This document shows positions 14,568 to 62,789 of a stretch of 64,000 nucleotides of DNA, one piece after another. Each line of letters opens with the position of its first letter. Position 1 is the stretch's first letter. The stretch lies in the NCBI GenBank assembly GCA_016177845.1, contig JACOUO010000014.1, positions 62,001 through 126,000 on the forward strand, in the 5' to 3' direction. The position numbers and the translations under genes were made by a program. Source of the stretch: Deltaproteobacteria bacterium (GTDB taxonomy: Bacteria > Desulfobacterota > GWC2-55-46). Under the pieces are notes generated by a model, which saw only the letters and a program-made list of their open reading frames with translations, searched no databases and was not told the origin of the DNA.

Positions 14568-15452
14568 TTAGCTCCTTGTCACTCCAAGCCCGTAATTTTT
14601 AAGCGTATTTATGAGTTTATTCCTGTTTGCCTCACTCATCCTCGTAAGCGGAAGCCTGAACTCTTCTTCGCACATGCCCATCAGGGCAAGCGCGGTCTTT
14701 ACAGGTATCGGGTTCGTCTCAATGAACATGGAACGGTGGAGGCTCTGAAGCCTGAAATGCAGACCCTTTGCCTCTTCGGTCTTACCCTCAAGGAAAAGCC
14801 TTATCATATCAGACATGTCTTTCGGGGCTATGTTCGAAGTAACTGAAATTACACCGTGGCCGCCTATGGAAAGCATGGGCAGTGTTGTGAAATCATCGCC
14901 TGAAAGTATTATGAAGCCCTTCTTCGAGTATTCGATAAGATCGCTTACCTGCTGTAAATTGCCGGTTGCTTCCTTTATGCCGATAATGTTTTTTATCTCT
15001 GAGAGCCTCGCAACCGTCTCAGGCAGCATGTTTACGCTTGTCCTGCCCGGTACATTATAAAGCACAATGGGGATATCGACTGCTTCGGCTACTTTTTTAT
15101 AATGCTCATAGAGCCCCTGCTGCGTGGGCTTGTTGTAGTACGGAGTAATAAGGAGCGCCGCATCCGCGCCTGCCTTTTTGGCATGCTTGGTGAGGAATAT
15201 GGTCTCTTCTGTTGAGTTTGAGCCGGTCCCGGCTATTACAGGCACCCGTTTTGCCGCTGTCTCTATGGTAAGCTCTATTACGCGGTTATGTTCCTCATAA
15301 CTTAGGGTAGCGGATTCTCCGGTTGTACCGCACGGCACAACTCCGTTGGTCCCGTTTGTTATCTGGAACTCTATAAGTCTTTTTAGATTCGCCTCATCTA
15401 CTTTACCGTCCTTAAATGGCGTTACAAGGGCGGTAATTGAGCCGCTGAACAT
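14568..15452 (-). CDS. dapA: 4-hydroxy-tetrahydrodipicolinate synthase
   Basis: Condenses pyruvate with aspartate semialdehyde. TIM-barrel aldolase of 294 aa: PCGTTGESATLSYEEH near residue 42, catalytic Tyr in the NVPGRTSVNM region near 133, Schiff-base Lys in GIKEATGN near 161, and SGDDFTTLP near 186. AGGAGG precedes the start on the minus strand. Lies 84 bases after dapF. Confidence 0.96.
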   Translation of the reverse strand: MFSGSITALVTPFKDGKVDEANLKRLIEFQITNGTNGVVPCGTTGESATLSYEEHNRVIELTIETAAKRVPVIAGTGSNSTEETIFLTKHAKKAGADAALLITPYYNKPTQQGLYEHYKKVAEAVDIPIVLYNVPGRTSVNMLPETVARLSEIKNIIGIKEATGNLQQVSDLIEYSKKGFIILSGDDFTTLPMLSIGGHGVISVTSNIAPKDMSDMIRLFLEGKTEEAKGLHFRLQSLHRSMFIETNPIPVKTALALMGMCEEEFRLPLTRMSEANRNKLINTLKNYGLGVTRS

Positions 15453-50170: not shown

Positions 50171-50237
50171 ATTCTTCTTTTCTGGTTTCTAATATGGACA
50201 TTTATTTACGACAGAATTCCCAGAACATATTGATAAA

Positions 50238-52334
50238 TCAAAGGAATCGGCAGAAATCATAGACAAGCCCTGAAAGGATTTTTTGACGGTCTTCTTCAGG
50301 GAAAGCCTTTCCGATATGGTTCTGAAATTCTTCCACTTTGGCTTCTTCGAGAAACAGGGCGACTACTTTGCCATATCCGGCATTAAGGCACTTGGCCGCG
50401 TTGCATGATTCATGTCCAATGCCCGTAGTTATCGAGACCTCAACTGCAATCCGTAATCCGTCCCGCTCAAGGCCGAGGTCTATCGTTTCCTTGCCCTCCG
50501 GAATCGACTTCTCGATTGCAGCCAGGTAGCCCTTGCTTTCGGCATAGGACTTTATGACCGATTGCCAGTATCGATGCTGAATCCCTCCTTTGCCTTCCTT
50601 GCCGGGCTCTATTCCAAGGGCATTGAAACCTGATGGCGTAAGGAGAAGGAACTTGGCAATACGGGAGTCCTGGCCGAGGTGCGTTGTGACCTCGCGGATA
50701 AGCCCCTTTTCCTTGAGAGCGCTTTTGATCTTGTCACCCATGTAGGCGCTCAACTCCTGCTTCTTATAGATTGAAGTAACCGAAAGCAAGGGGTTGTTGT
50801 AGGCACACTCCAAGAAGGCCCTTTCCTGTACTGTTATCGACGGAATCTTATCTATGGGCGTTATGGCCTTCTGTGCTGGCTTACTCTGTCTCACATGTTG
50901 GTACTTATTAGAGGCCGTATATTTTTCCCGTGAACGGGCTATAATCTCATCCGCATAGTTCATGTCCGGCGGCTCCGGTGCCTTTTCCGTTACCATATTG
51001 AAGGTGCTGCTTACCATTTTGACCAGGGTTTCGCCGCGCCTAAGCTGGCCGATTTCCTCGGCCTTGAATTTACGCGAAAGATTCTTTTCCATAAGGAGCT
51101 GGTCATTCGGCGAATCGCTCGCAAAGAAAACCATAGTTGATGCATTAAACACATGGCGAAGAATATAGTCCGGAATATCACCTATCATCTGGTTTGCAAG
51201 ACAGAGATGCAGGCCGAATTTTCTTGCTCCTGATAGGATATCCGCCATGCTCGGGCAAGCCATATGCTGGAACTCGTCTATGAATAGATAGAAGTCAGGA
51301 CAAGCGCCCTCCCTTCTCATAGCGGCAATCTGGATTTTAGAGACAAGGAGCTTGCCAAGCAACTGGCTGTTCCTCTTGCCAATGTCTCCATGCGACAGAT
51401 TGCAGAGAAAGACTTTGCTCCTGTCCATGATCTCCAGAAAATCTATCTTGTTCTCACGGTTTGAAAGCATTGGGTCTATGGTTGAGTCAGGAAGAATTAA
51501 GGGACTCAGCTTATTGGTTATGGCCGTAGCTATCCCGCGCCGCTCAAGTGAAGGAAACTCCAGCTCCCAGAAGGCCAGAACCCGCTCATTCTCGATTCCG
51601 TCAAGGAATTCCTTCCTGAATCCCTTGTCTATCATGAGCCTTTCCATATCGAGCAAGGTCGAAGCATGGCGCGAAAGGAGCGTGACCAGTAGGAAGTTGA
51701 GCGTATGCTGGACATTTACGCCAAGAGGTGCCTCGAAAAGATCTTCGAAGAAGTTCAGGAGGTCGGTTCTGATATGCTCCTTTTCCAGCTTGCTTCCACT
51801 GTGGGCAAGAGGGTTGATCGCCATTGGAAATCCAAAGTCTCCAGCGCTGAAGTAAATCGTATCGTTCTTTCTTTCAGCCGGAATTCTTGGGAGTATGCCT
51901 TGCCTTACAAGTGAGCCGTGGGGATCTATTATCGCAACTCCGTCTCCGGCTTCTATCCTTTGAATTACGGTTTGAAGTATCAAATTCGATTTGCCGTAGC
52001 CGCTCTTGCCAGCTTGATAGCAGTGCCGGTTCGGTAAATTTCGGGAATGGCAGACCTGCTTTCTAATTCCCCTGTACACGTTAATGCCGAGTACAGGGCC
52101 GTCATTGGTAAACTCCTCAGGCACAGGATAGGCTGCCCTGGCTGTACTTAGGCTGTGAGTGGCAGAAACCAACTCCTGAGAAGGAAGGTGGACCAGGGAT
52201 GCCAACTCTTCAGAATTCAATATGGCCCCGTGCACGAAAGTGTTCCGGCTGAGGATACTTTGAGGAGGATACGAGCCACTTATACGATCTATTCCGTTTT
52301 CAGCCGTACTGAATTGGTTGAAAAAGCTCTCCAT
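50238..52334 (-). CDS. Coupling-protein-like AAA ATPase (TraD/VirD4/HerA type), C-terminal fragment of an interrupted gene
   Basis: 698 residues. Walker A GKSGYGKSN near 112 in a CYQAGKSGYGKSNLILQ context; IIDPHGSLVRQGIL near 135; Walker B LFIDEFQHMA near 338; LCLANQM near 365. This is the TraG/TraD-type motor used to feed DNA into conjugation channels. The last 120 residues contain IDLGLERDGLRIAVEVS, vaguely like a PD-(D/E)xK fold but with Ser for the expected Lys. It is in the same frame as the upstream 247-aa reading frame; only one TGA separates them. Confidence 0.8.
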   Translation of the reverse strand: MESFFNQFSTAENGIDRISGSYPPQSILSRNTFVHGAILNSEELASLVHLPSQELVSATHSLSTARAAYPVPEEFTNDGPVLGINVYRGIRKQVCHSRNLPNRHCYQAGKSGYGKSNLILQTVIQRIEAGDGVAIIDPHGSLVRQGILPRIPAERKNDTIYFSAGDFGFPMAINPLAHSGSKLEKEHIRTDLLNFFEDLFEAPLGVNVQHTLNFLLVTLLSRHASTLLDMERLMIDKGFRKEFLDGIENERVLAFWELEFPSLERRGIATAITNKLSPLILPDSTIDPMLSNRENKIDFLEIMDRSKVFLCNLSHGDIGKRNSQLLGKLLVSKIQIAAMRREGACPDFYLFIDEFQHMACPSMADILSGARKFGLHLCLANQMIGDIPDYILRHVFNASTMVFFASDSPNDQLLMEKNLSRKFKAEEIGQLRRGETLVKMVSSTFNMVTEKAPEPPDMNYADEIIARSREKYTASNKYQHVRQSKPAQKAITPIDKIPSITVQERAFLECAYNNPLLSVTSIYKKQELSAYMGDKIKSALKEKGLIREVTTHLGQDSRIAKFLLLTPSGFNALGIEPGKEGKGGIQHRYWQSVIKSYAESKGYLAAIEKSIPEGKETIDLGLERDGLRIAVEVSITTGIGHESCNAAKCLNAGYGKVVALFLEEAKVEEFQNHIGKAFPEEDRQKILSGLVYDFCRFL

Positions 52335-52373
52335 TGCCTCAAGAACGGAAATATCGGTAGCAAGCGCCCTGAT

Positions 52374-52376
52374 TCA
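52374..52376 (-). other. In-frame TGA interrupting the coupling ATPase
   Basis: On the minus strand the frame reads K-P-L-F-A-V-TGA-I-R-A-L-A-T-D-I-S-V-L-E-A-M-E-S. Frame continuity is exact and no other stop occurs between 53117 and 50238. A CGA (Arg) to TGA transition would explain it. Confidence 0.85.
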
Positions 52377-53117
52377 GACGGCAAAGAGGGGCTTTGATAT
52401 TTTCTTTTCCACGAGCTTAGGAAGATGCGGAAGGTCGGCAAATGGCGACTGGCTAGGGTCGTATTGGCTTCTGGACGCAAGATAAAGGTTGTCTTTCCAG
52501 TCATGCCTGACCGGTATAAAAGACACCTGGAACGCGGCAAGGCCGGAGCCGATATTATCAAAGACGCCGAAAAGCGCCCTATATGGGTCGAACCCTGTAC
52601 CCTGGCCCAAGGGGAAGAAGTGCGAAGCCCTGAGCCTGTAGGCGCGTGCAAGGAGGTGCTGCCCTTTTGCCTCTTCAAATAAATCTCTTTCCTCTACCAT
52701 AGCATCGGCTCCGGGGAAATGAGCTCTTATCTGGGCGGCTATGTTTTCTGTTTGCTCCTTATTAATCGCAAGCTGGAATCTGATCTGTTTCCCTGTGCAA
52801 ACAATCTCCAGAAATGCTGGGAAACCGTCTGGAAATGAAGTCAGAAACTGCTCTGCATTCACTATCGTGCATTTTTCATCCCTTGCCGGGAGTATCCTGA
52901 TGAAACCGGAATTAAAGGAATTGATTTTGGCCTGAACGCTTCGGCTCTCGACTTTCCGGCCAAAAAGATTTTGAATAAATAAGCGCTTCTCCAGCTTATG
53001 GGTAAATGGCTTGAAAGGCGGCTCCAACTCGACAGGATAGGGCAGCACGGCAGCCGAGCCCTGTCCTTTTTCCATCTCCTCAATTATTTTTTTCCTTTTT
53101 TCTTCGAGGACTCTCAT
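52374..53117 (-). CDS. N-terminal part of the coupling-type ATPase (interrupted by TGA)
   Basis: 247 residues ahead of the TGA. Charged helix at the N-terminus, then a beta-rich region (FTSFPDGFPAFLEIVC, GKQIRFQLAINKEQ) and FFPLGQGTGFDPYRALFGVFDN, QVSFIPVRHDWKDNLYLASRSQYDPSQSPFADLP. This domain layout normally precedes the motor domain in one long conjugal ATPase; joined with the downstream frame the protein would be about 959 aa. Starts 2 bases after the upstream gene's stop. Confidence 0.7.
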   Translation of the reverse strand: MRVLEEKRKKIIEEMEKGQGSAAVLPYPVELEPPFKPFTHKLEKRLFIQNLFGRKVESRSVQAKINSFNSGFIRILPARDEKCTIVNAEQFLTSFPDGFPAFLEIVCTGKQIRFQLAINKEQTENIAAQIRAHFPGADAMVEERDLFEEAKGQHLLARAYRLRASHFFPLGQGTGFDPYRALFGVFDNIGSGLAAFQVSFIPVRHDWKDNLYLASRSQYDPSQSPFADLPHLPKLVEKKISKPLFAV

Positions 53118-53119
53118 AC

Positions 53120-53491
53120 TCAGACCGGTATTGATGTCTCACAATATGGGCAAACCATAAAAAGGAACCTTTTGCCACAATTAGGGCATGGACTGAAGAC
53201 ATGCCTATCCTTATATGGAATAAAGCCACAACCACATTTATATCTGCCTACAAGCTCAATACTTGTGCCGCAGCCAAAACAAGGGGCTTCAGGGATATGC
53301 CGTTCCTGAAGCCTCCTGGATACAGGGACCACCTTGAACGTGAGGGCATGGAATATGAGAAGGGCGATAGCGCTCTGGAAGACGAGCTCGCTTCCAAAAG
53401 CGATGCCTGCCTTCGCCCCTGCATAGCTCACAGTAATTACGGAGCAATGATAGGCGGCAGCTATCAACCGGCGCTTCAGCCTTATACCCAT
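53120..53491 (-). CDS. Small membrane protein with zinc-ribbon C-terminus
   Basis: 123 residues: a hydrophobic region of one or two helices (about 10-55), then zinc-ribbon-like cysteines CFGC, CGCG, CPNC and CPYC between residues 72 and 118. No named family recognised. Its ATG follows directly on the stop of the preceding 61-aa gene, so the two are coupled within the conjugation-like operon. Confidence 0.75.
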   Translation of the reverse strand: MGIRLKRRLIAAAYHCSVITVSYAGAKAGIAFGSELVFQSAIALLIFHALTFKVVPVSRRLQERHIPEAPCFGCGTSIELVGRYKCGCGFIPYKDRHVFSPCPNCGKRFLFMVCPYCETSIPV

Positions 53492-53677
53492 TCACTGCCT
53501 CCATCTCATCCGCGTCTGCCTTATAACTGCCCCGCCTTTCCTTTCAGCCTGGCCCCAGAGCCAGCCTGCAAACCCTTTTAAAAACCGGATTACAAGTCTC
53601 TTAAGGAGCTTGTAGATGTTCGGGAGCCATTTTTTCATGGCGTAGATCGCAATTAGGGCTATAAGCAGGGTAAGCAA
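53492..53677 (-). CDS. Small basic membrane protein
   Basis: 61 residues: hydrophobic N-terminus (LTLLIALIAIYAM) followed by a basic amphipathic region ending RQTRMRWRQ. TTG start with GGAG six bases upstream. The stop is immediately followed by the next start. Unknown function; retained mainly for its operon context. Confidence 0.55.
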   Translation of the reverse strand: MLTLLIALIAIYAMKKWLPNIYKLLKRLVIRFLKGFAGWLWGQAERKGGAVIRQTRMRWRQ

Positions 53678-53693
53678 GACGGCTCCTTTGCCC

Positions 53694-54563
53694 CTAATCT
53701 GTCACCAGTGCTGCTACTCCTATTGCAGCAGCTACGCCAAAGATTGAACTCAACCCTGAATTACTGTTTTGTGACGCCTTCGTAGCTGAAAGCGGCAGAT
53801 GGAATCTGATCAGCCGTTTTCCTCTGATATCTTCGACAATAAAGAATTCAACATTATCTTTCTCGATAAGGGCAACGGCAAAGGTCTTGTCTACGTTATT
53901 ACTGCCATCCAAAACCTGAGCCTTGGTTTCGCTCCATTTTTTCCCATGCTTCTCCTGGACAGCGAGCGGATAGGCTATCTCACCCCAATGGAGATTCAGT
54001 GCGCCTCCTTTGATGTCCTGGGGCTCGTGATCTAAAACCGCAAGCCTTCTCGCGCTGTGCACGGATACTTTTCTTCGTGCAATATGGAGTGCATCGGCAT
54101 TGAGGAGATTGTCCCTTATCGCCCTGGAGCTTTGGGGCTCGATAAAATCGCCGAGTGCTTCTATGAGCCAGGCAGAAGAGCGCCTGCCCTGATCATCTCC
54201 TTTGGTGATTGTGCCGCTTAGCCCTATTACCGCTTCGTTCGCTCCAGTGCCGCGAGCCAAGAGCTGCCATTGGGTAGGCACGCGGTCTGTATTTATAATC
54301 TGCGCCATTGGCTTGAGCGTATCTATGGATAGAATTGTCCTATCCGGCATGATTTTCTCGATTGCCGTTTCACACGGCTCCTTCAAGCCCGTAGCAGGAA
54401 CGCCGTTATTGCTCCAGGCCAGGGCCAGTCTTTCCGCCCGTTCCTCTTTTGGATCTGCGATAATGATCTGGTTAGTCGCGTCAAAGAAGCCTCCTGCCAG
54501 GACAGCTTCCGAAACAGCGCTGCCGCCACGATGAGCGCCGCCGATGAAAAGTGTCTTTCCCAT
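53694..54563 (-). CDS. Unknown island protein with N-terminal nucleotide-binding-like motif
   Basis: 289 residues. Begins KTLFIGGAHRGGSAVSEAVL, a glycine-rich beta-alpha start resembling a Rossmann fold, then QIIIADPKEERAERLA. Middle part with GLSGTITKGDDQGRRSSAWLIEAL. The C-terminal 20 residues are hydrophobic and may anchor it to the membrane. Strong AAGGAGG ribosome site. Not recognised as a known conjugation protein; sits between the membrane/VWA-like gene and the small membrane genes. Confidence 0.7.
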   Translation of the reverse strand: MGKTLFIGGAHRGGSAVSEAVLAGGFFDATNQIIIADPKEERAERLALAWSNNGVPATGLKEPCETAIEKIMPDRTILSIDTLKPMAQIINTDRVPTQWQLLARGTGANEAVIGLSGTITKGDDQGRRSSAWLIEALGDFIEPQSSRAIRDNLLNADALHIARRKVSVHSARRLAVLDHEPQDIKGGALNLHWGEIAYPLAVQEKHGKKWSETKAQVLDGSNNVDKTFAVALIEKDNVEFFIVEDIRGKRLIRFHLPLSATKASQNSNSGLSSIFGVAAAIGVAALVTD

Positions 54564-54576
54564 ATTGTCCTCCTTC

Positions 54577-56382
54577 TTAGTTGAAGCTACACACTTCAGA
54601 TATATCAGCCCTTACGCCCCACCTACTAAACACTTCAGCCCAAAGGTCAATGAGCCGTTCATAATTCTCCGTCGTCATCGTGGACGTATTGTCCAACGTA
54701 TATGGATGAAGGCCGCAGGCCGTGAGTCTTGTTCCCGGCGCGAATTTGGGCTTTATGGATTTCGAATCAAGCCACTTAATAAATTCCGCTTTACCTGGCA
54801 CTTTTCTTTCAAAGTTGAAGGCTCCATTTACCTGGCGCATGTCCGAAAGTATGTAGATTAGTGTTGTGCCGCCTTGAGAAATCCGTAAGGAAGCCCGGTA
54901 TATGGCTTCGGCAATAGCCGATCTCTTGTTTTCCGGTAAGTCTTCAGCCTTTTTCGAGAGCCTTTCCATAAATTGGCCTGTCCATTTTTTCTTATTGAGC
55001 GTCACTGGCCCTGGGAATTGTTCAGGGTACTTTTCCGAAAAGGCGATTTCTGCTGAATCAAAGCCGGTATCAATTATGACGACCTCGAAAGAGCCGCCTC
55101 CGGCATCTCCAGCCCCTCCGATCCAAAGCTTGGCTACCTTTTCCAGATTCTCTTTTGAGCAGGCGTATTCTCCGGCTGAGCTACTCCGGTCGCATATGGC
55201 TATTAGGTTGAAACCTCCAGAAGCCAAGGCTGGCTGAGAAAAGGCCACTAGGAAGAAAGCTATAAATGCCGGAAGGTATCTCTTGCCGGTACTCCGGCCT
55301 TCCCTTATTGCTGACCGCTTCCAGCCGCACCAAAAAAGGTAAGCGATATGCAGCTCGGCAAGATAGTTTTCAGTAAAGCGGACATATTTTTCCCAGTCAG
55401 CCTTTTGCCTTTCTTTATCCCTTTTAGCCTTTTGGTAATGGCTTACGTATTCGGCAATCAGACGATCGAATTCCTTTTCCGTCTGCTTAAGATGCTGCTC
55501 GTTTTTTCCGAGTCGTTCCTCATAAGTCCTTTCCAGCGCTTCAATGCCCTTAAGCTTTGCGTTGTCTTTCGCAATCGCAATTGAAGCCGCCCTCCACCTA
55601 TTTATGAAGTAGGCTGCCGCAAGAGGAAAGGAGAAGGCTGTAAAGCTGAAGATAAAAGGCATAAGCCATGCTCCAACTGTCATCTCATCTTGCAAGGCAA
55701 ATATCTGCCTTGCCCTCATCCAGCCTATGCCAATGGCCAGAACCGCGAGTGCGATTATCCAGGAATTACGCCTCCTTCCTGCCAGAACCATTTCCGCAAT
55801 CAATAAAGACGCTATGAAAAAGCCGAAAGAGGGTAAAAGGGCCACCAAGAAGGCCGTTGGCTCCTTTAAAAAGGCTTTGGACAGCCGTGTCGGATCAATG
55901 CCAAAGAAATCAGCGAAAAGGGTAAAGACGGAACCTATCTCCCCGAGAGCGAGAATCGTAAATAGTATGAGACTGCCTAAGGCCTCTCTCCGCTTCAAAT
56001 GCAACTCATAATTGTTTTTGATATTGAGATTGCGTCTATGTTTCTCATCCCTTATCGCTTCGGATGTCACCCTTATATCCAGCTCACAGGTCGAGATTCT
56101 CTCTATTACTCCTTGGGCTTTCTTCTGAAGGGTGTCCGCGTACTTGTCTCCCATCTCGGCTCGAAGCGCTAATTCATCGAGCATGTCCTTGCCCTCATCC
56201 TGGACCTCGGTCCTTAAGAGACCTCCATCCTGTTGAACGGAGATATAATAGGGCGGCTCGCCTTGAGGAGCGTGCTTCACAAGCGCCCTTGCCTTTGCCT
56301 TCAGAAATTCCGGAAGGGGTATGCCGCTGCGCTCAGCAAGGTATGCTTCTCCATAAACTCTAAATTTGGTTATAATATTCAT
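54577..56382 (-). CDS. Large membrane protein with coiled coil and VWA-like C-terminal domain
   Basis: 601 residues. N-terminal cytoplasmic region (1-130) with charged helices; hydrophobic helices at about 135-270; a Lys/Glu-rich coiled coil (270-345); another hydrophobic segment near 375-390 ending SQPALASGG. It is followed by NLIAICDRSSSAGEY, a D-x-S-x-S metal-site pattern of von Willebrand A domains. IYILSDMRQVNG near 525 fits the later Asp of such a domain. GAGGG ribosome site. First gene of the minus-strand operon; function unknown. Confidence 0.75.
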   Translation of the reverse strand: MNIITKFRVYGEAYLAERSGIPLPEFLKAKARALVKHAPQGEPPYYISVQQDGGLLRTEVQDEGKDMLDELALRAEMGDKYADTLQKKAQGVIERISTCELDIRVTSEAIRDEKHRRNLNIKNNYELHLKRREALGSLILFTILALGEIGSVFTLFADFFGIDPTRLSKAFLKEPTAFLVALLPSFGFFIASLLIAEMVLAGRRRNSWIIALAVLAIGIGWMRARQIFALQDEMTVGAWLMPFIFSFTAFSFPLAAAYFINRWRAASIAIAKDNAKLKGIEALERTYEERLGKNEQHLKQTEKEFDRLIAEYVSHYQKAKRDKERQKADWEKYVRFTENYLAELHIAYLFWCGWKRSAIREGRSTGKRYLPAFIAFFLVAFSQPALASGGFNLIAICDRSSSAGEYACSKENLEKVAKLWIGGAGDAGGGSFEVVIIDTGFDSAEIAFSEKYPEQFPGPVTLNKKKWTGQFMERLSKKAEDLPENKRSAIAEAIYRASLRISQGGTTLIYILSDMRQVNGAFNFERKVPGKAEFIKWLDSKSIKPKFAPGTRLTACGLHPYTLDNTSTMTTENYERLIDLWAEVFSRWGVRADISEVCSFN

Positions 56383-56454
56383 TGCGCACCCTCGACAGCC
56401 TTACTCTTTATAGGACAAAGATGACATATAATTCATGGATTTAAAATTTTGTAA

Positions 56455-56472
56455 TTTCACAATTTTTCACAA
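56455..56472. promoter_or_regulatory. Direct repeat TTTCACAA-N2-TTTCACAA
   Basis: Two perfect 8-base copies with 10-base periodicity (one helical turn), 5 bases before the TPR gene start and within the 95-base divergent spacer. Candidate operator. No Shine-Dalgarno is visible for the TPR gene. Confidence 0.45.
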
Positions 56473-56477
56473 ACACT

Positions 56478-57755
56478 ATGAAATCTAAGCGCAGACCGGC
56501 AGGACCAAAAAGGCTTTTTGTAAGCATAAAGGACTTAGAAATAAGGACAGCGGATGAATTCGTATATCCGCTAACGAAGCAATTTTTATATTTCTACTGT
56601 TATCTAGTCTTTTCGAAGCTAAAAGACGAGAAGCACATGGGAGGGTTTGTATCAACAGAGGAAGTAATCTCTTTACCTTATTGGGAAAATAATACTCTTA
56701 CGAGCATAGGCAAGCAGGTTAGACGGCATATCGTCCAAATGGAAAAAATTGGGCGCAACATTATAGAAGCCAAGCAAAAGATCTATGGACCGTTTCGACT
56801 GATCCTTCCTGTAGACCAGATAGAGCTAGACGTAACTATTCCCTCCTTAATGGAATTTTTGAATTTAATTCACGTTGGCAGGCTTGATTCAGATCAGGAA
56901 CAAAGATTTTATAAATATGTTGAATATATGTGGGAAGGGGATGCTAATTTCGATGATGGGCTATTAAAAAGGGCATTGTCATTATATAAAAAGGCGGCTA
57001 AAGTAGCCTTGAATCCTGCACAGAAGATTACGGTCAATCAAAAAATTGGTCGGACCTTGGGTCGGCTTGGGAATACCGATGAGGCACTTATTGTTTTCTG
57101 GAAGCTGCTTGAAAATAAGTGGCTCAACGAGTATGAGAGGGCTTCAACCTGTACTCATTACGCCTGGATCGAGTACCGGAAGGGCAATTTAAGCAAAGCG
57201 GAAGAGTTTTATTATAGAGCTTTAGAATCGTCCCGTGGCAATAAATACTTCAAAGTGCTCGGTGAGATATACAATGGCTTAGGTCTAATAAGAAAAGAAT
57301 ACGGACATTATCAGGAATCCTTAACCTTTTATCAACGCGCCTTGGAATGCTGGTCCTTGGTTGACTATTTTTATGGAATTCAGGCGGTCTACTTTAATAT
57401 TGGAAATCTCCATAGAATCTGGGGTGATCATACAAGCGATAACCATCCAGCCCTGAAAAATTCACATTATCGAAACGCTAAGGAATGGACACTAAGGTGC
57501 ATTTCACTGTGTCAAAAGATCGGTATCGCCTATGAGACAAGCCTAGATCATATTCTGTTATCAGAACTATTCTTGAAGGCAGGCGCTCCGGATAAAGCGA
57601 TTGAATATGCCAAAATTGCGAATGAGATGGCAATAGCTGCAGGAAACAAAAATGATATTCGTTATTCGTACAAAGCTCTTTTTGAGGCATATACGGCCAA
57701 AGGAGAAACTGCATTGGCAAAAGCTGCCTCTCTAAAGTTACAGGAGAGTATTTAG
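56478..57755 (+). CDS. TPR-repeat protein with N-terminal winged-helix-like domain
   Basis: 425 residues. The N-terminal 120 residues resemble a winged helix (LTKQFLYFYCYLVF, VSTEEVISLPYWENN, IGKQVRRHIVQME), as in OmpR/SARP-type effector domains. From about 160 to the end there are some seven tetratricopeptide-like repeats (for example KYFKVLGEIYNGLGLIRKEYG and LTFYQRALECWSLVD). Probably a regulator or peptide-sensing switch for the island (inference). It diverges from the conjugation-like operon and its base composition is more AT-rich than the host genes. Confidence 0.75.
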   Translation: MKSKRRPAGPKRLFVSIKDLEIRTADEFVYPLTKQFLYFYCYLVFSKLKDEKHMGGFVSTEEVISLPYWENNTLTSIGKQVRRHIVQMEKIGRNIIEAKQKIYGPFRLILPVDQIELDVTIPSLMEFLNLIHVGRLDSDQEQRFYKYVEYMWEGDANFDDGLLKRALSLYKKAAKVALNPAQKITVNQKIGRTLGRLGNTDEALIVFWKLLENKWLNEYERASTCTHYAWIEYRKGNLSKAEEFYYRALESSRGNKYFKVLGEIYNGLGLIRKEYGHYQESLTFYQRALECWSLVDYFYGIQAVYFNIGNLHRIWGDHTSDNHPALKNSHYRNAKEWTLRCISLCQKIGIAYETSLDHILLSELFLKAGAPDKAIEYAKIANEMAIAAGNKNDIRYSYKALFEAYTAKGETALAKAASLKLQESI

Positions 57756-58107
57756 CTATATTACTACGCTTTCTTATCCATGAGCCGTGTCGAGGTGACG
57801 TTTTTAAGTAAATCTTTTTTTCAGGTCGGCGAAGACATAAATAGCTTAAAGGCTTTTAGCCCAGTTGAGGCATTCCGCAATTACCCTCAAAGAGCTCATC
57901 CTGGAATTCGCCTAATTTCTCCTCAATCAGCCTCTATGGTTAAGGCATAGTTTTCATGTTCATATGTACAAAAAATAAACTCTCTTGTCTAAAATTTCAG
58001 GCTAATTTATTTAGAATGATGAAGAAATGGATAGAGTATAGAAGTAATATTGTAAAAATGCTATTCTAAATATTGTCTTTGTTTAATCAGTGGAGGATAT
58101 TTTATTT
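57756..58107. other. AT-rich intergenic region before the OLD-helicase operon
   Basis: 352 bases without a credible gene. A GGAGG lies at 58092-58096. No clear promoter or repeat could be assigned; the composition is AT-rich like the following genes. Confidence 0.5.
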
Positions 58108-60342
58108 ATGTATTTAGACGCATATAAAATAAAAAATTTTCGCCGTCTTAAAGATGTGCTTATTACTCTTGAGAAGGATATATCAATTTACGTTGGTGCT
58201 AATAATAGCGGAAAGACGTCAGCAACCCATCTTGTACAACTTTTTATACAGGGATCAAAGGAAAGGCTAACAATACACGATTTTAGTGCTGATTGTTGGG
58301 ATAAGATCAACGAAATTGGAAAAGAGAAAGAATCCGGTGGCACCAGTACAGTTGCAGATCAGTTTCCTCATATTAGCCTCGATCTGTGGTTTAGCGTTCA
58401 AGAAAATGATCTTGGTAAGGTTATTGATTTGCTGCCAGGTCTAGAATGGTCGGGTGCTCTAGTTGGTCTTCGCATCTCCTTTGGTCCTTCCGATGCTGAT
58501 TCTATGCTTCAACGTTATCTCGATTCAAGGGCAAAGCTTCCCAAAAGAGTAGAAGGAGAGGACCAGTTAAGTTATTCACCAACAAGCTTATTTGATTATA
58601 TTAAAGAAAATATCGGAAAAGAGTTCAGTTTTAAATATTACGTTCTTGATAGGAGTTTTTTTGATGATAATTTTAACCAAAAGCCAGGCTATGAGCCGTC
58701 GCCTCTGATCTCTGAAAAAGGCAGGTCTGGTCCTCAAATACTGAGAAGTCTGCTTAGGGTTGATTGCCTTGATGCCCAGAGACATCTCTCTGATAATTCT
58801 GCTGCTCGGTCCGAAAATCTTTCAAGGTGTCTGTCGCGTTTCTATACTAGAAATTTCAAGAAGAAAGAAGATGATCCGGAGGTGCAAGAGGCTCTTGCAA
58901 GAGCAAAGGCAGGACTAGATTCTCACTTTGCTACTGTCTTTGGGCCTACTCTTGATAAGTTGAGTGACATAGGATACCCGGGATTAGGTAATCCGAGACT
59001 TATGATACGTTCTGCACTCAACCCGTCAGCAGTAATGGCGAGTCAAGATGGAGCAACTGTGCACTATGCGTTAGAAAAAAATACTGGCGGTGCTTGCGAA
59101 TCCTATATTCTTCCTGATAGATACAACGGTTTAGGTTTTAAAAACCTAATATATATGGTTATCGAGCTTTTGGATCTCCATGCTCAATGGTTAGACCCAG
59201 AAGATGACAATCAGCCATCTCTTCATCTAGTGTTCATTGAAGAACCAGAAGCACATTTGCATACTCAGTTACAGCAAGTATTCACTCGCAAGATACTTGA
59301 TATATTGAAAATTGAGCAAGAACAAGCTGATTATTTTTCCAGCCAGCTTGTGATAACAACTCATTCTCCCCATATTTTGTTTGAGCGAGGGTTTAGGCCA
59401 ATTCGCTACTTCAGAAAATTACATACAGATGATTTTCAAATTTCCGAAGTTTTGAACATGTCTAAGCTTTATGAAGAAATGGGTGCGCCCGACCGAGATT
59501 TTTTGGAGCGTTATATGAGGCTCTCACACTGCGATCTTTTTTTCGCAGATGCGGCAATATTGGTCGAGGGAAATGTTGAGCGATTATTAATACCGATCAT
59601 GATAGAAAAAGCTGCTCCGAATTTAAAGTCTAGCTCAATTTGTATTTTGGAAATAGGAGGTGCATTCGGTCATCGATTTAAAAAGCTAATTGAATATCTT
59701 GGAATCGTAGCTTTGATTATAACTGACCTGGATAGTATTGGTGCCGATGCTGAGAGTGGGGCTTCACCTGATGAAGACAATGAGGAGGAAGGAGACAGCG
59801 CCGCATTGAAAGCTTGTCTCGTCTCAACAGCTGGAGCTGTTACGTCAAATCAGACCTTGAAACAATGGCTACCCGGAATGGAAAATATCTCCGATCTTAT
59901 ATCGGCTACCGATGAGCAGAAAACACGTAAACCTGATGCAATTTCTCCTTCACATATAAGAGTCGCTTACCAGAAGCCACGTGTTGTGACCTGGGGTGAG
60001 GATTCCATAGGAATTGCAGGCAGGACATTTGAGGAGGATTTTGCTTATGAAAATTTGGCCTGGTGTCAAAATCCAGCAAATAAGAGTGTCAAATTATTTG
60101 TCTCAAAAAATGCAGAGAAAAATCTGTCAGAAATGAGCAAAAAAATATTCTCCAGAGTTAAAAGCCCAGGCTTTAATAAGACAGACTTCGCTTTAGCGGT
60201 TCTTGAAAAAAAGCCAAGCGAATGGCAGGTCCCAAGCTATATTAGTGAGAGTTTAAAATGGCTTGAGGAGCAACTTCCTCCTTCAACAGAGGCAATAAAG
60301 ACCAAAGTCGACAAGGTATCTACGACTGAGGTTGAAAAATAA
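58108..60342 (+). CDS. OLD-family ATPase/Toprim nuclease (GajA-like)
   Basis: 744 residues. ABC-type ATPase: YKIKNFRRL start, Walker A GANNSGKT at 30-37, Walker B with LVFIEEPEAHLH near 382 and VITTHSPHILFERG after. The Toprim domain has Glu in ILVEGNVERLLIP near 487 and the acidic pair in IITDLDSIG near 538. OLD proteins cut DNA under ATP control; those paired with UvrD helicases (class 2, Gabija) give phage resistance. Larger than GajA of Bacillus (about 580 aa). ATG preferred over the GTG at 58090, which overlaps the GGAGG site. AT-rich. Confidence 0.85.
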   Translation: MYLDAYKIKNFRRLKDVLITLEKDISIYVGANNSGKTSATHLVQLFIQGSKERLTIHDFSADCWDKINEIGKEKESGGTSTVADQFPHISLDLWFSVQENDLGKVIDLLPGLEWSGALVGLRISFGPSDADSMLQRYLDSRAKLPKRVEGEDQLSYSPTSLFDYIKENIGKEFSFKYYVLDRSFFDDNFNQKPGYEPSPLISEKGRSGPQILRSLLRVDCLDAQRHLSDNSAARSENLSRCLSRFYTRNFKKKEDDPEVQEALARAKAGLDSHFATVFGPTLDKLSDIGYPGLGNPRLMIRSALNPSAVMASQDGATVHYALEKNTGGACESYILPDRYNGLGFKNLIYMVIELLDLHAQWLDPEDDNQPSLHLVFIEEPEAHLHTQLQQVFTRKILDILKIEQEQADYFSSQLVITTHSPHILFERGFRPIRYFRKLHTDDFQISEVLNMSKLYEEMGAPDRDFLERYMRLSHCDLFFADAAILVEGNVERLLIPIMIEKAAPNLKSSSICILEIGGAFGHRFKKLIEYLGIVALIITDLDSIGADAESGASPDEDNEEEGDSAALKACLVSTAGAVTSNQTLKQWLPGMENISDLISATDEQKTRKPDAISPSHIRVAYQKPRVVTWGEDSIGIAGRTFEEDFAYENLAWCQNPANKSVKLFVSKNAEKNLSEMSKKIFSRVKSPGFNKTDFALAVLEKKPSEWQVPSYISESLKWLEEQLPPSTEAIKTKVDKVSTTEVEK

Positions 60343-60345
60343 CTT

Positions 60346-62223
60346 ATGACTATTCGTATAACACAACCTGATACGCAAGCTGACGTTGATCTAAGAGAAT
60401 GTCTCGATGCTGATAAACCTATTAGTTTTGTTATGGTTGCCGGAGCGGGATCAGGAAAGACAACTTCTTTAATTAAAGCATTGGATCATGTTGGCAAAAA
60501 GTATGGCGCTGAACTAAATAGGAGAAAGCAAAAGGTTGTTTGCATTACATATACCGAAATTGCCCAGCAGGAGATTTGGAATGATGTAGGACAAAATCTA
60601 CTTTTTCACGTTTCAACCATACATAGTTTTTTATGGACAGTAATACGGCCATTCCAGTCTGACATTAAAAAGTGGGTGTTCGAGAGAATTAATGAAAAGA
60701 TTACCGAGGCTCAAGAGCGCATAGAAAAACCACGCACAAGACCTGCAACAATTGAAAAACTCAAAGAAGAGATTGCTGAATATGGCGAGATCTTAGATAG
60801 CCTTGCGTCGGTATCTCGCTTTACTTATGGCACTGGAAGTAGTTATGATAAAGGTATTTTAGGTCATGATGATATAATAAAAATGGTTCCAGTGCTTATT
60901 GTGAGCCGACCTTTATTGCGGTCGATAATTATTGATAAATACCCATATATTTTTATTGATGAGAGTCAGGATACAACAGAAGTAGTCGTTGAGGCTATGA
61001 AAGCTATTGAAAGCCAAGGAAGAGGGAAATTTTGTTTAGGATTCTTCGGGGATCCAATGCAGAAAATTTATTCAAACGGCATTGGCGATATACCTATGGA
61101 AAAAGGGTGGATAAGAATTGAAAAACCGGAAAACTTTCGATGCCCTGCTAGCGTCCTATCTGTGATTAACAATATACGAGCAGGTGGCGATGCCTTGGTT
61201 CAAGTTTCTGGCAAGGCCGGGATCGATGGAACAGCAAGGATGTTTATAATCCCTGCTGACGAACATAGGAGTGAGCGCCTGCATGGTGTTAAGAAATGGT
61301 TGGCTGAATCTAACAATGATCAACTCTGGATTTCTGATGATAAGGATGCTGATGTAAAAGTTTTGGTTACTCTTCATAGGGTAGCTGCTTCCCGTTTGGG
61401 TTTTGCCGAGCTTTATGCCGCTTTTAATGATAATGACGCACCATCATCACTTAAAACAGGATTCATTGATGGAGGTAGTTGGGCGCTCACGCCGATTCTT
61501 TCTTACATTTTACCTTTATACGAATTAGCCAAAAAAAAGAAAGAATTCGAGATCGTTACTTTTCTTAGGAAAAATTCACCCCTACTTTCAGAAGAAAGCT
61601 TAAAAAAAATTAAAGTCAGTAAAATTTTGACGGAACTCAGTAATGCTGTCACTAAGCTTGTTGAGCTTATAGATTCTGTTGATCATACTATAATTGAGGT
61701 GCTTTTGCATGCGAGAGAGAGTCAAATATTTCTCTTCGAAGATCGCCTTAATGATTATTTGAATGCTTATGAGTCAGGTGTTTTGGCAAGCAAAGAAGGT
61801 TTGAGTGATGAAATGTTTGGGTCATCTGATGCGATGATGGCGTTTTTTAAATGCCCAGCTTCTCAACTCATTGCATATAAAGTTTATATTATAAATGAAT
61901 CTCCATTTGCGACACAGCAAGGCATTAAGGGAGCAGAATTTGCTCGAGTGCTTGCCGTCTTAGATGATGAAGAAGGACAACATATTATGTTTTCTTATAA
62001 TAAATTTTTTGGCATCGCTCCTCTTTCTCCTACGGATAGAGATAATTTAACTAATGGCAAGGAAACAGTGCTAGACCGAACAAGGCGATTATTTTATGTT
62101 ATTTGTTCTCGTGCAACAAAAGACCTTGCAGTCGTACTGTATGCCGTTGATCCTGATTCTGTTTATCGACAAATTATTTCAGAAGGAATTTTTCCAGAAA
62201 AGGATGTTTTTGTGTTAAAATGA
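60346..62223 (+). CDS. UvrD/Rep-family helicase (GajB-like)
   Basis: 625 residues, 3 bases after the OLD gene. Superfamily 1A motifs: Walker A VAGAGSGKTTSLI near 32, CITYTEIAQQEI (motif Ia), YIFIDESQDTTEVV (II) near 203, FGDPMQKIY (III) near 236, ENFRCPASVL (IV) near 263. Late motifs KGAEFARVLAVLDDEE near 528 and RRLFYVICSRATKDLAVVLY near 585 stand for V and VI. In Gabija the helicase-like GajB senses DNA ends and cooperates with GajA. Longer than GajB (about 500 aa). Confidence 0.88.
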   Translation: MTIRITQPDTQADVDLRECLDADKPISFVMVAGAGSGKTTSLIKALDHVGKKYGAELNRRKQKVVCITYTEIAQQEIWNDVGQNLLFHVSTIHSFLWTVIRPFQSDIKKWVFERINEKITEAQERIEKPRTRPATIEKLKEEIAEYGEILDSLASVSRFTYGTGSSYDKGILGHDDIIKMVPVLIVSRPLLRSIIIDKYPYIFIDESQDTTEVVVEAMKAIESQGRGKFCLGFFGDPMQKIYSNGIGDIPMEKGWIRIEKPENFRCPASVLSVINNIRAGGDALVQVSGKAGIDGTARMFIIPADEHRSERLHGVKKWLAESNNDQLWISDDKDADVKVLVTLHRVAASRLGFAELYAAFNDNDAPSSLKTGFIDGGSWALTPILSYILPLYELAKKKKEFEIVTFLRKNSPLLSEESLKKIKVSKILTELSNAVTKLVELIDSVDHTIIEVLLHARESQIFLFEDRLNDYLNAYESGVLASKEGLSDEMFGSSDAMMAFFKCPASQLIAYKVYIINESPFATQQGIKGAEFARVLAVLDDEEGQHIMFSYNKFFGIAPLSPTDRDNLTNGKETVLDRTRRLFYVICSRATKDLAVVLYAVDPDSVYRQIISEGIFPEKDVFVLK

Positions 62224-62251
62224 TAATACTCTAAAAAATAAATTTAAATTT

Positions 62252-62617
62252 ATGTCAAAAGAAAACAAGGGCTGGCCTAGAAATGAATCTACTGGACCCT
62301 TAGGCGGTTTTTCAACAGGTCCTGGAGGAGGGCTGTCCACAGGCCCTGGCGGAGGAGCTTCAACGGGTCCAGGAGGTGGCATGTCTACTGGCCCCGGTGG
62401 AGGGTTATCTACTGGTCCTGGAGGAGGTCTCTCTACAGGCCCAGGGGGTGGGCTTTCAACTGGACCTGGCGGAGGTTTGTCTACTGGCCCTGGTGGGGGC
62501 TTGTCAACCGGTCCAGGAGGCGGACTGTCCACAGGTCCTGGTGGTGGATTGTCTACTGGCCCCACACCTTACTACAGCAATATACCTCCAAGAGAGGTCT
62601 ATCTGAAATATTTATAA
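62252..62617 (+). CDS. Octad-repeat protein (STGPGGGx)10 with conserved-looking C-terminal tail
   Basis: 121 residues: a 12-residue polar leader, one degenerate octad STGPLGGF, ten perfect STGPGGGx octads (x is Leu eight times, Ala and Met once each; 62312-62551), a final STGP, and a non-repetitive tail TPYYSNIPPREVYLKYL. The 24-base units differ at many third positions while the amino acids do not change, so it is translated and selected. No signal peptide or Cys. It starts 28 bases after the helicase stop, same strand, with no clear ribosome site. Unknown function; probably the third gene of the defence-like operon. Confidence 0.75.
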   Translation: MSKENKGWPRNESTGPLGGFSTGPGGGLSTGPGGGASTGPGGGMSTGPGGGLSTGPGGGLSTGPGGGLSTGPGGGLSTGPGGGLSTGPGGGLSTGPGGGLSTGPTPYYSNIPPREVYLKYL

Positions 62618-62789
62618 AGAGTACGGATACGATTGGGCATATAATATTCTTAAAAAAGCGTGGCGGTTATAGAATGGGAGAGGGCGAGATTTTTTTTGGA
62701 GCCTTTCTCTTTAAAAAATGACATTTAAATCAAATTTTCCCTCCTTGCTCATCTTTTCCGAACAGGATACATTAAGAAAGTAAGAACGA

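Follow-up and report, generated by a model that had tools for sequence, protein, structure and literature searches.

The window, the whole 64,000-nucleotide stretch of DNA that was analyzed, carries a cassette of three consecutive genes on the forward strand near its end, followed by a convergent recombinase gene. The features are as follows.

58108–60342, + strand: GajA, a class-2 OLD nuclease (ABC ATPase plus Toprim), 744 amino acids; PADLOC PDLC00095, Pfam AAA_15 and OLD-like_TOPRIM
60346–62223, + strand: GajB, a UvrD-like SF1 helicase, 625 amino acids; PADLOC PDLC00143, Pfam UvrD-helicase
62252–62617, + strand: octad-family ORF with a GWPRN head, 11 octads, and a shortened tail, 121 amino acids; assigned by family architecture
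62616–62672, + strand: remnant of the octad-family C-terminal tail in the next frame; its 18 codons resemble the tail of an intact relative, L063
62790–64000, – strand, continuing past the window end: large serine recombinase; Pfam Recombinase and zinc ribbon

The Gabija pair and its island

The order, strand, and spacing of the three ORFs given in the first-pass annotation were confirmed, with 3 nt between GajA and GajB and the octad ORF beginning 28 nt past GajB on the same strand. For GajA, the ATG at 58108 is preferred as the start because an in-frame GTG at 58090 falls inside a GGAGG ribosome-binding-like site. The nuclease matches the 752-residue PADLOC GajA model over residues 1–737 (E = 6e-253) and the helicase matches the 632-residue GajB model over residues 1–623 (E = 2e-229). 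GajA combines an N-terminal ABC-type ATPase, with Walker A GANNSGKT (residue 30), IEEPEAHLH (377), and THSPH (418), with a C-terminal Toprim domain that is matched by solved GajA chains. The class-2 OLD set of E, G, and DxD is kept as Glu-487, Gly-517, and Asp-540/Asp-542, which align with Glu-379, Gly-409, Asp-432, and Asp-434 of Bacillus GajA (PMC10781630). Directly adjoining it, GajB carries the SF1 motifs GAGSGKTTS (33), FIDESQDT (203), GDPMQ (235), FRCP (264), GIKGAEFA (526), and RRLFYVICSRA (580). The earlier reading of complete OLD ATPase/Toprim and SF1 helicase motifs, as in Gabija, is thus borne out by the motifs and by the full-length PADLOC matches.

When compared with the Gabija system of Bacillus cereus VD045, for which the GajA–GajB complex has been solved (PMC10781630), the pair has the same composition of class-2 OLD nuclease and UvrD-like helicase and the same catalytic residues, whereas sequence identity beyond the motifs is low and both proteins are longer (744 versus 578 residues for GajA and 625 versus 494–499 for GajB). 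The first-pass annotation was correct in noting this extra length, but it is not new, as PADLOC already holds models of ~750 and ~630 residues. The long-form PADLOC models (PDLC00095/PDLC00093 for GajA and PDLC00143/PDLC00111 for GajB) share with the window pair its genes, order, domains, length, and Toprim residues; the two proteins differ from them only by sequence divergence, and the additional gene behind GajB does not constantly accompany the system. Plasmid relatives show ~45–50% identity and have the long architecture throughout, and a search of viral contigs with GajA as the query found no related loci. Judged from these comparisons, positions 58108–62223 are predicted to encode a complete two-gene Gabija of the long GajA/GajB type, a kind that is already recognized. 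By analogy with the published mechanism of the family, GajA would form a tetrameric Toprim nuclease core onto which GajB would dock as the helicase subunit, and the complex would cleave invading phage DNA.

This Gabija is carried by a mobile island. The GC content drops from ~49% to 39–40% across the cassette, in agreement with the AT-rich composition noted before, and the serine recombinase, convergent with the octad gene, belongs to the island; its full length is 536 amino acids, as read from an ORF at 14790–16400 in L011. The window and a genome of a sister genus (G263) share one collinear element, with 83% identity at 50207–56357 and 87% at 57837–62500. Positions 56357–57837, between these two conserved blocks, look like a variable cargo site: they hold a TPR gene in the window, but the sister genome has ~3 kb of other sequence there. 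Promoter and terminator scanning across the cassette yielded values close to the shuffled expectation.

Architecture and distribution of the octad family

Searches of Pfam, NCBIfam, PADLOC, and PHROGs left the octad ORF of the window without a match, the relatives tested had no Pfam match above curated cut-offs and none in PHROGs, and a literature search on the octad repeat string or a third Gabija gene returned nothing relevant. Tblastn of the window octad against plasmids, and of another octad against phages, gave no matches, probably as a result of low-complexity filtering, which masks the repeats; the tail of an octad relative used as the query did recover plasmid members. Viral contigs and GTDB genomes were scanned with a degenerate DNA pattern that matches a pair of adjacent TGPGGG units, which gave 19 viral contigs and at least 119 GTDB genome stretches. 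After removal of unrelated glycine-rich ORFs, most of the pattern matches listed form one family, with a W-P/V-R-N head, the octads, a Y-x-S-N-x-P-P motif, and an amphipathic tail. Exactly 11 octads are present in 67 of the 109 cytosolic-type ORFs listed, some of which are cut by contig ends. The units are position-specific rather than interchangeable: of these 67 ORFs, 62 have alanine at the end of unit 3, and 62–65 have leucine at the ends of units 6, 9, and 10. The window copy has the GWPRN head, 11 units, and a third unit ending in alanine.

Comparison of ten units of the window ORF counted 259 nucleotide differences in codons whose residue is unchanged and 37 in codons whose residue differs, and selection therefore acts on the octad protein. 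As most of the divergence between units is synonymous, neither recent slippage of the DNA nor an element acting at the DNA level accounts for the repeats. A proline-rich antisense ORF at 62215–62565 (– strand) is an artifact, a shadow of the octad repeats. AlphaFold modeling of L063 gave two confident helices for the tail, whereas the repeats had a pLDDT of ~32 with no resolved structure. In a second flavor of octad protein (L013, L048, L076, L108, L119, L135, and others), which may be exported, a signal peptide is combined with ends that contain cysteines (CVGYSGPGGPC ... TDKWNRPNPNC).

According to the organism names of the records, the family occurs in Pseudomonadota, Bacillota, Bacteroidota, Actinomycetota, Chloroflexota, Planctomycetota, Myxococcota, and candidate phyla; its plasmid and chromosome members rule out a phage-only family. 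The nearest upstream genes of the octads listed encode phage terminase, portal, Fic, Xre with IrrE-Fic, SocA/MqsA-like proteins, integrase, reverse transcriptase, AIPR, TIR, and HIRAN proteins, as well as the non-defense products P450, permease, and DctM. Pfam assigned 7 integrases, 6 Fic, 5 IrrE-like, and 3 HNH proteins among the 133 nearest neighbors listed, together with 2 each of YhaV, RloB, DUF4062, and YaaC. PADLOC assigned Drt4/Drt6, ThsB, SIR2, PD-Lambda-1, SoFic, AbiU, PDC-M03, and others, one or two each. These counts are without a matched control, and no enrichment is claimed from them. Bacilli and Clostridia metagenome-assembled genomes (L061, L073, L078, L107, and L141) share a conserved trio of Xre-type regulator, IrrE-Fic fusion, and octad gene. 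On plasmids of Enterococcus faecium and Aerococcus (L176 and L180) a YjzC family gene immediately precedes the octad gene, with IS6-type elements close by.

The defense matches upstream of octad genes (Drt4/Drt6, ThsB, SoFic, AbiU, PDC-M03, and SIR2) would fit a general defense-island accessory that partners many defense systems, Gabija included. We consider this unlikely, since many octad neighbors are P450, permease, DctM, and other genes outside defense, the neighbor counts come without a matched control, and octads can stand alone. The 2365-bp Weissella cibaria plasmid pJY33 (L175) is annotated with a replication gene and the octad gene only. The octads resemble prophage cargo ("moron") genes, being likewise small extras beside integrase, terminase, and portal genes with no fixed partner (L017, L025, L029, and L185–L187), but they also occur on plasmids and in chromosomal islands. 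Our best guess, put forward tentatively, is that the octad protein serves mobile elements as a small accessory or competition factor, working on its own and with no need of a fixed partner. Equally tentative is the wider proposal that the octads form a pan-bacterial mobile family in which the fixed head, 11 octads, and helical tail make up a new structural module, serving as a stand-alone or partner-promiscuous factor in anti-phage or inter-element competition, with the adjacency to Gabija incidental.

The octad gene beside Gabija: linkage and damage

Every ORF of the octad loci was searched with hidden Markov models built from 14 GajA and 13 GajB sequences. Among the loci listed, matches were confined to the window and to G263 of the sister genus, except that the GajA model also gave two weak, partial hits. 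At least 600 nt of upstream DNA, enough for GajB to show, is present at 112 of the 125 other octad loci listed, a few of them near-duplicates; none of these ~112 loci among the matches listed has a GajA or GajB neighbor. No GajA of the window's kind was found in 16 whole octad-carrying genomes, a search run without a positive control. In the other direction, 0 of 18 other GajA loci (11 on plasmids and 7 chromosomal with GajA and GajB) has an octad ORF. Within the window's own family, this GajA is present in 2 of 30 genomes, and the octad gene in the same 2. The second of these is G263, and as both loci lie in one collinear element they count as one event; the GajB–octad DNA is as conserved between them as the rest of the element up to an IS break. 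A constant octad link in independent loci, as expected of a three-component Gabija, was thus not observed.

Both Gabija-linked octad genes are damaged. The window copy changes frame at ~62615, soon after SNIPPREVYL, and then meets a stop, so that the ORF lacks most of the C-terminal helical hairpin that follows SNxPP in the family. Its nearest intact relative among the matches listed, L063 of Candidatus Buchananbacteria, shares the GWPRN head, 11 octads, and SNIPPREVYL tail start, but in the window copy the rest of the tail lies past the frame change; the 18 tail codons readable in the next frame resemble the L063 tail. An assembly error could account for the frame change. In G263 the octad gene runs for nine units and is then cut by a sequence that is present in three copies in that genome and in one copy, at 90%, in the genome of the window, and that overlaps the end of a transposase ORF we take to be IS3-like. 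The octad gene thus appears to be decaying in both carriers. The same IS-like element also cuts a gene for a large ATPase in the sister genome (L184, 727 onward, – strand), which we presume is possibly BREX-like, and the two insertions suggest recent IS activity.

The first-pass annotation had proposed a Gabija variant with the octad protein as a third subunit, and had named beforehand, as the outcome that would speak against it, octad genes occurring mostly without OLD/UvrD neighbors. Among the loci listed, the family does occur almost entirely without GajA and GajB, and the octad protein as a third Gabija subunit is rejected on the linkage in both directions and on the damage to both copies: if Gabija needed it as a subunit, its gene would not be expected to be disrupted in each carrier with GajA and GajB still intact. 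A narrower version, in which this Gabija lineage recently recruited the protein from the wider family as a dedicated subunit or regulator, could draw on the 28-nt same-strand gap and an arrangement conserved in two genera, but is improbable given the damage, the lack of a second independent GajA–GajB–octad link among the loci listed, and the absence of GajA/GajB from the upstream DNA seen at L063, the closest full-length relative among the matches listed. Also improbable is an intact window gene expressed by programmed +1 frameshifting at the ORF end, for although the tail is readable for 18 codons and resembles L063, the other surveyed members encode theirs in a single frame with no such site seen, and the sister copy is already interrupted ahead of the frame-change point.

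Most probably, and with considerable confidence, the window holds an ordinary two-gene Gabija on a mobile island together with an unrelated, decaying octad gene carried as mobile cargo. As separate cargo, the octad gene would have inserted behind GajB in a single ancestral element and would then have decayed, by the frameshift in the tail in the window and by the IS3-like interruption in the sister genus. The 28-nt same-strand gap, the co-occurrence of GajA and octad in the same 2 of 30 genomes, and the even conservation of the GajB–octad DNA up to the IS break are points against this cargo reading, and a lineage-specific octad role before the damage is possible.

With the three-subunit Gabija removed as a false lead, the octad family is the part worth pursuing. 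The analysis exposes a gap, namely a small protein with a conserved repeat number, spread over many phyla, prophages, and a 2.4-kb plasmid, that is unnamed in the four family libraries searched. As it recurs beside defense genes and integrases, its function can be tested directly in laboratory Escherichia coli. In this species 18 of 5426 genomes carry an octad gene. The gene is without annotation in two of the three E. coli genomes that were read (L185–L187); in all three it is intact and lies between an integrase gene and rcdA in P2-like prophages.
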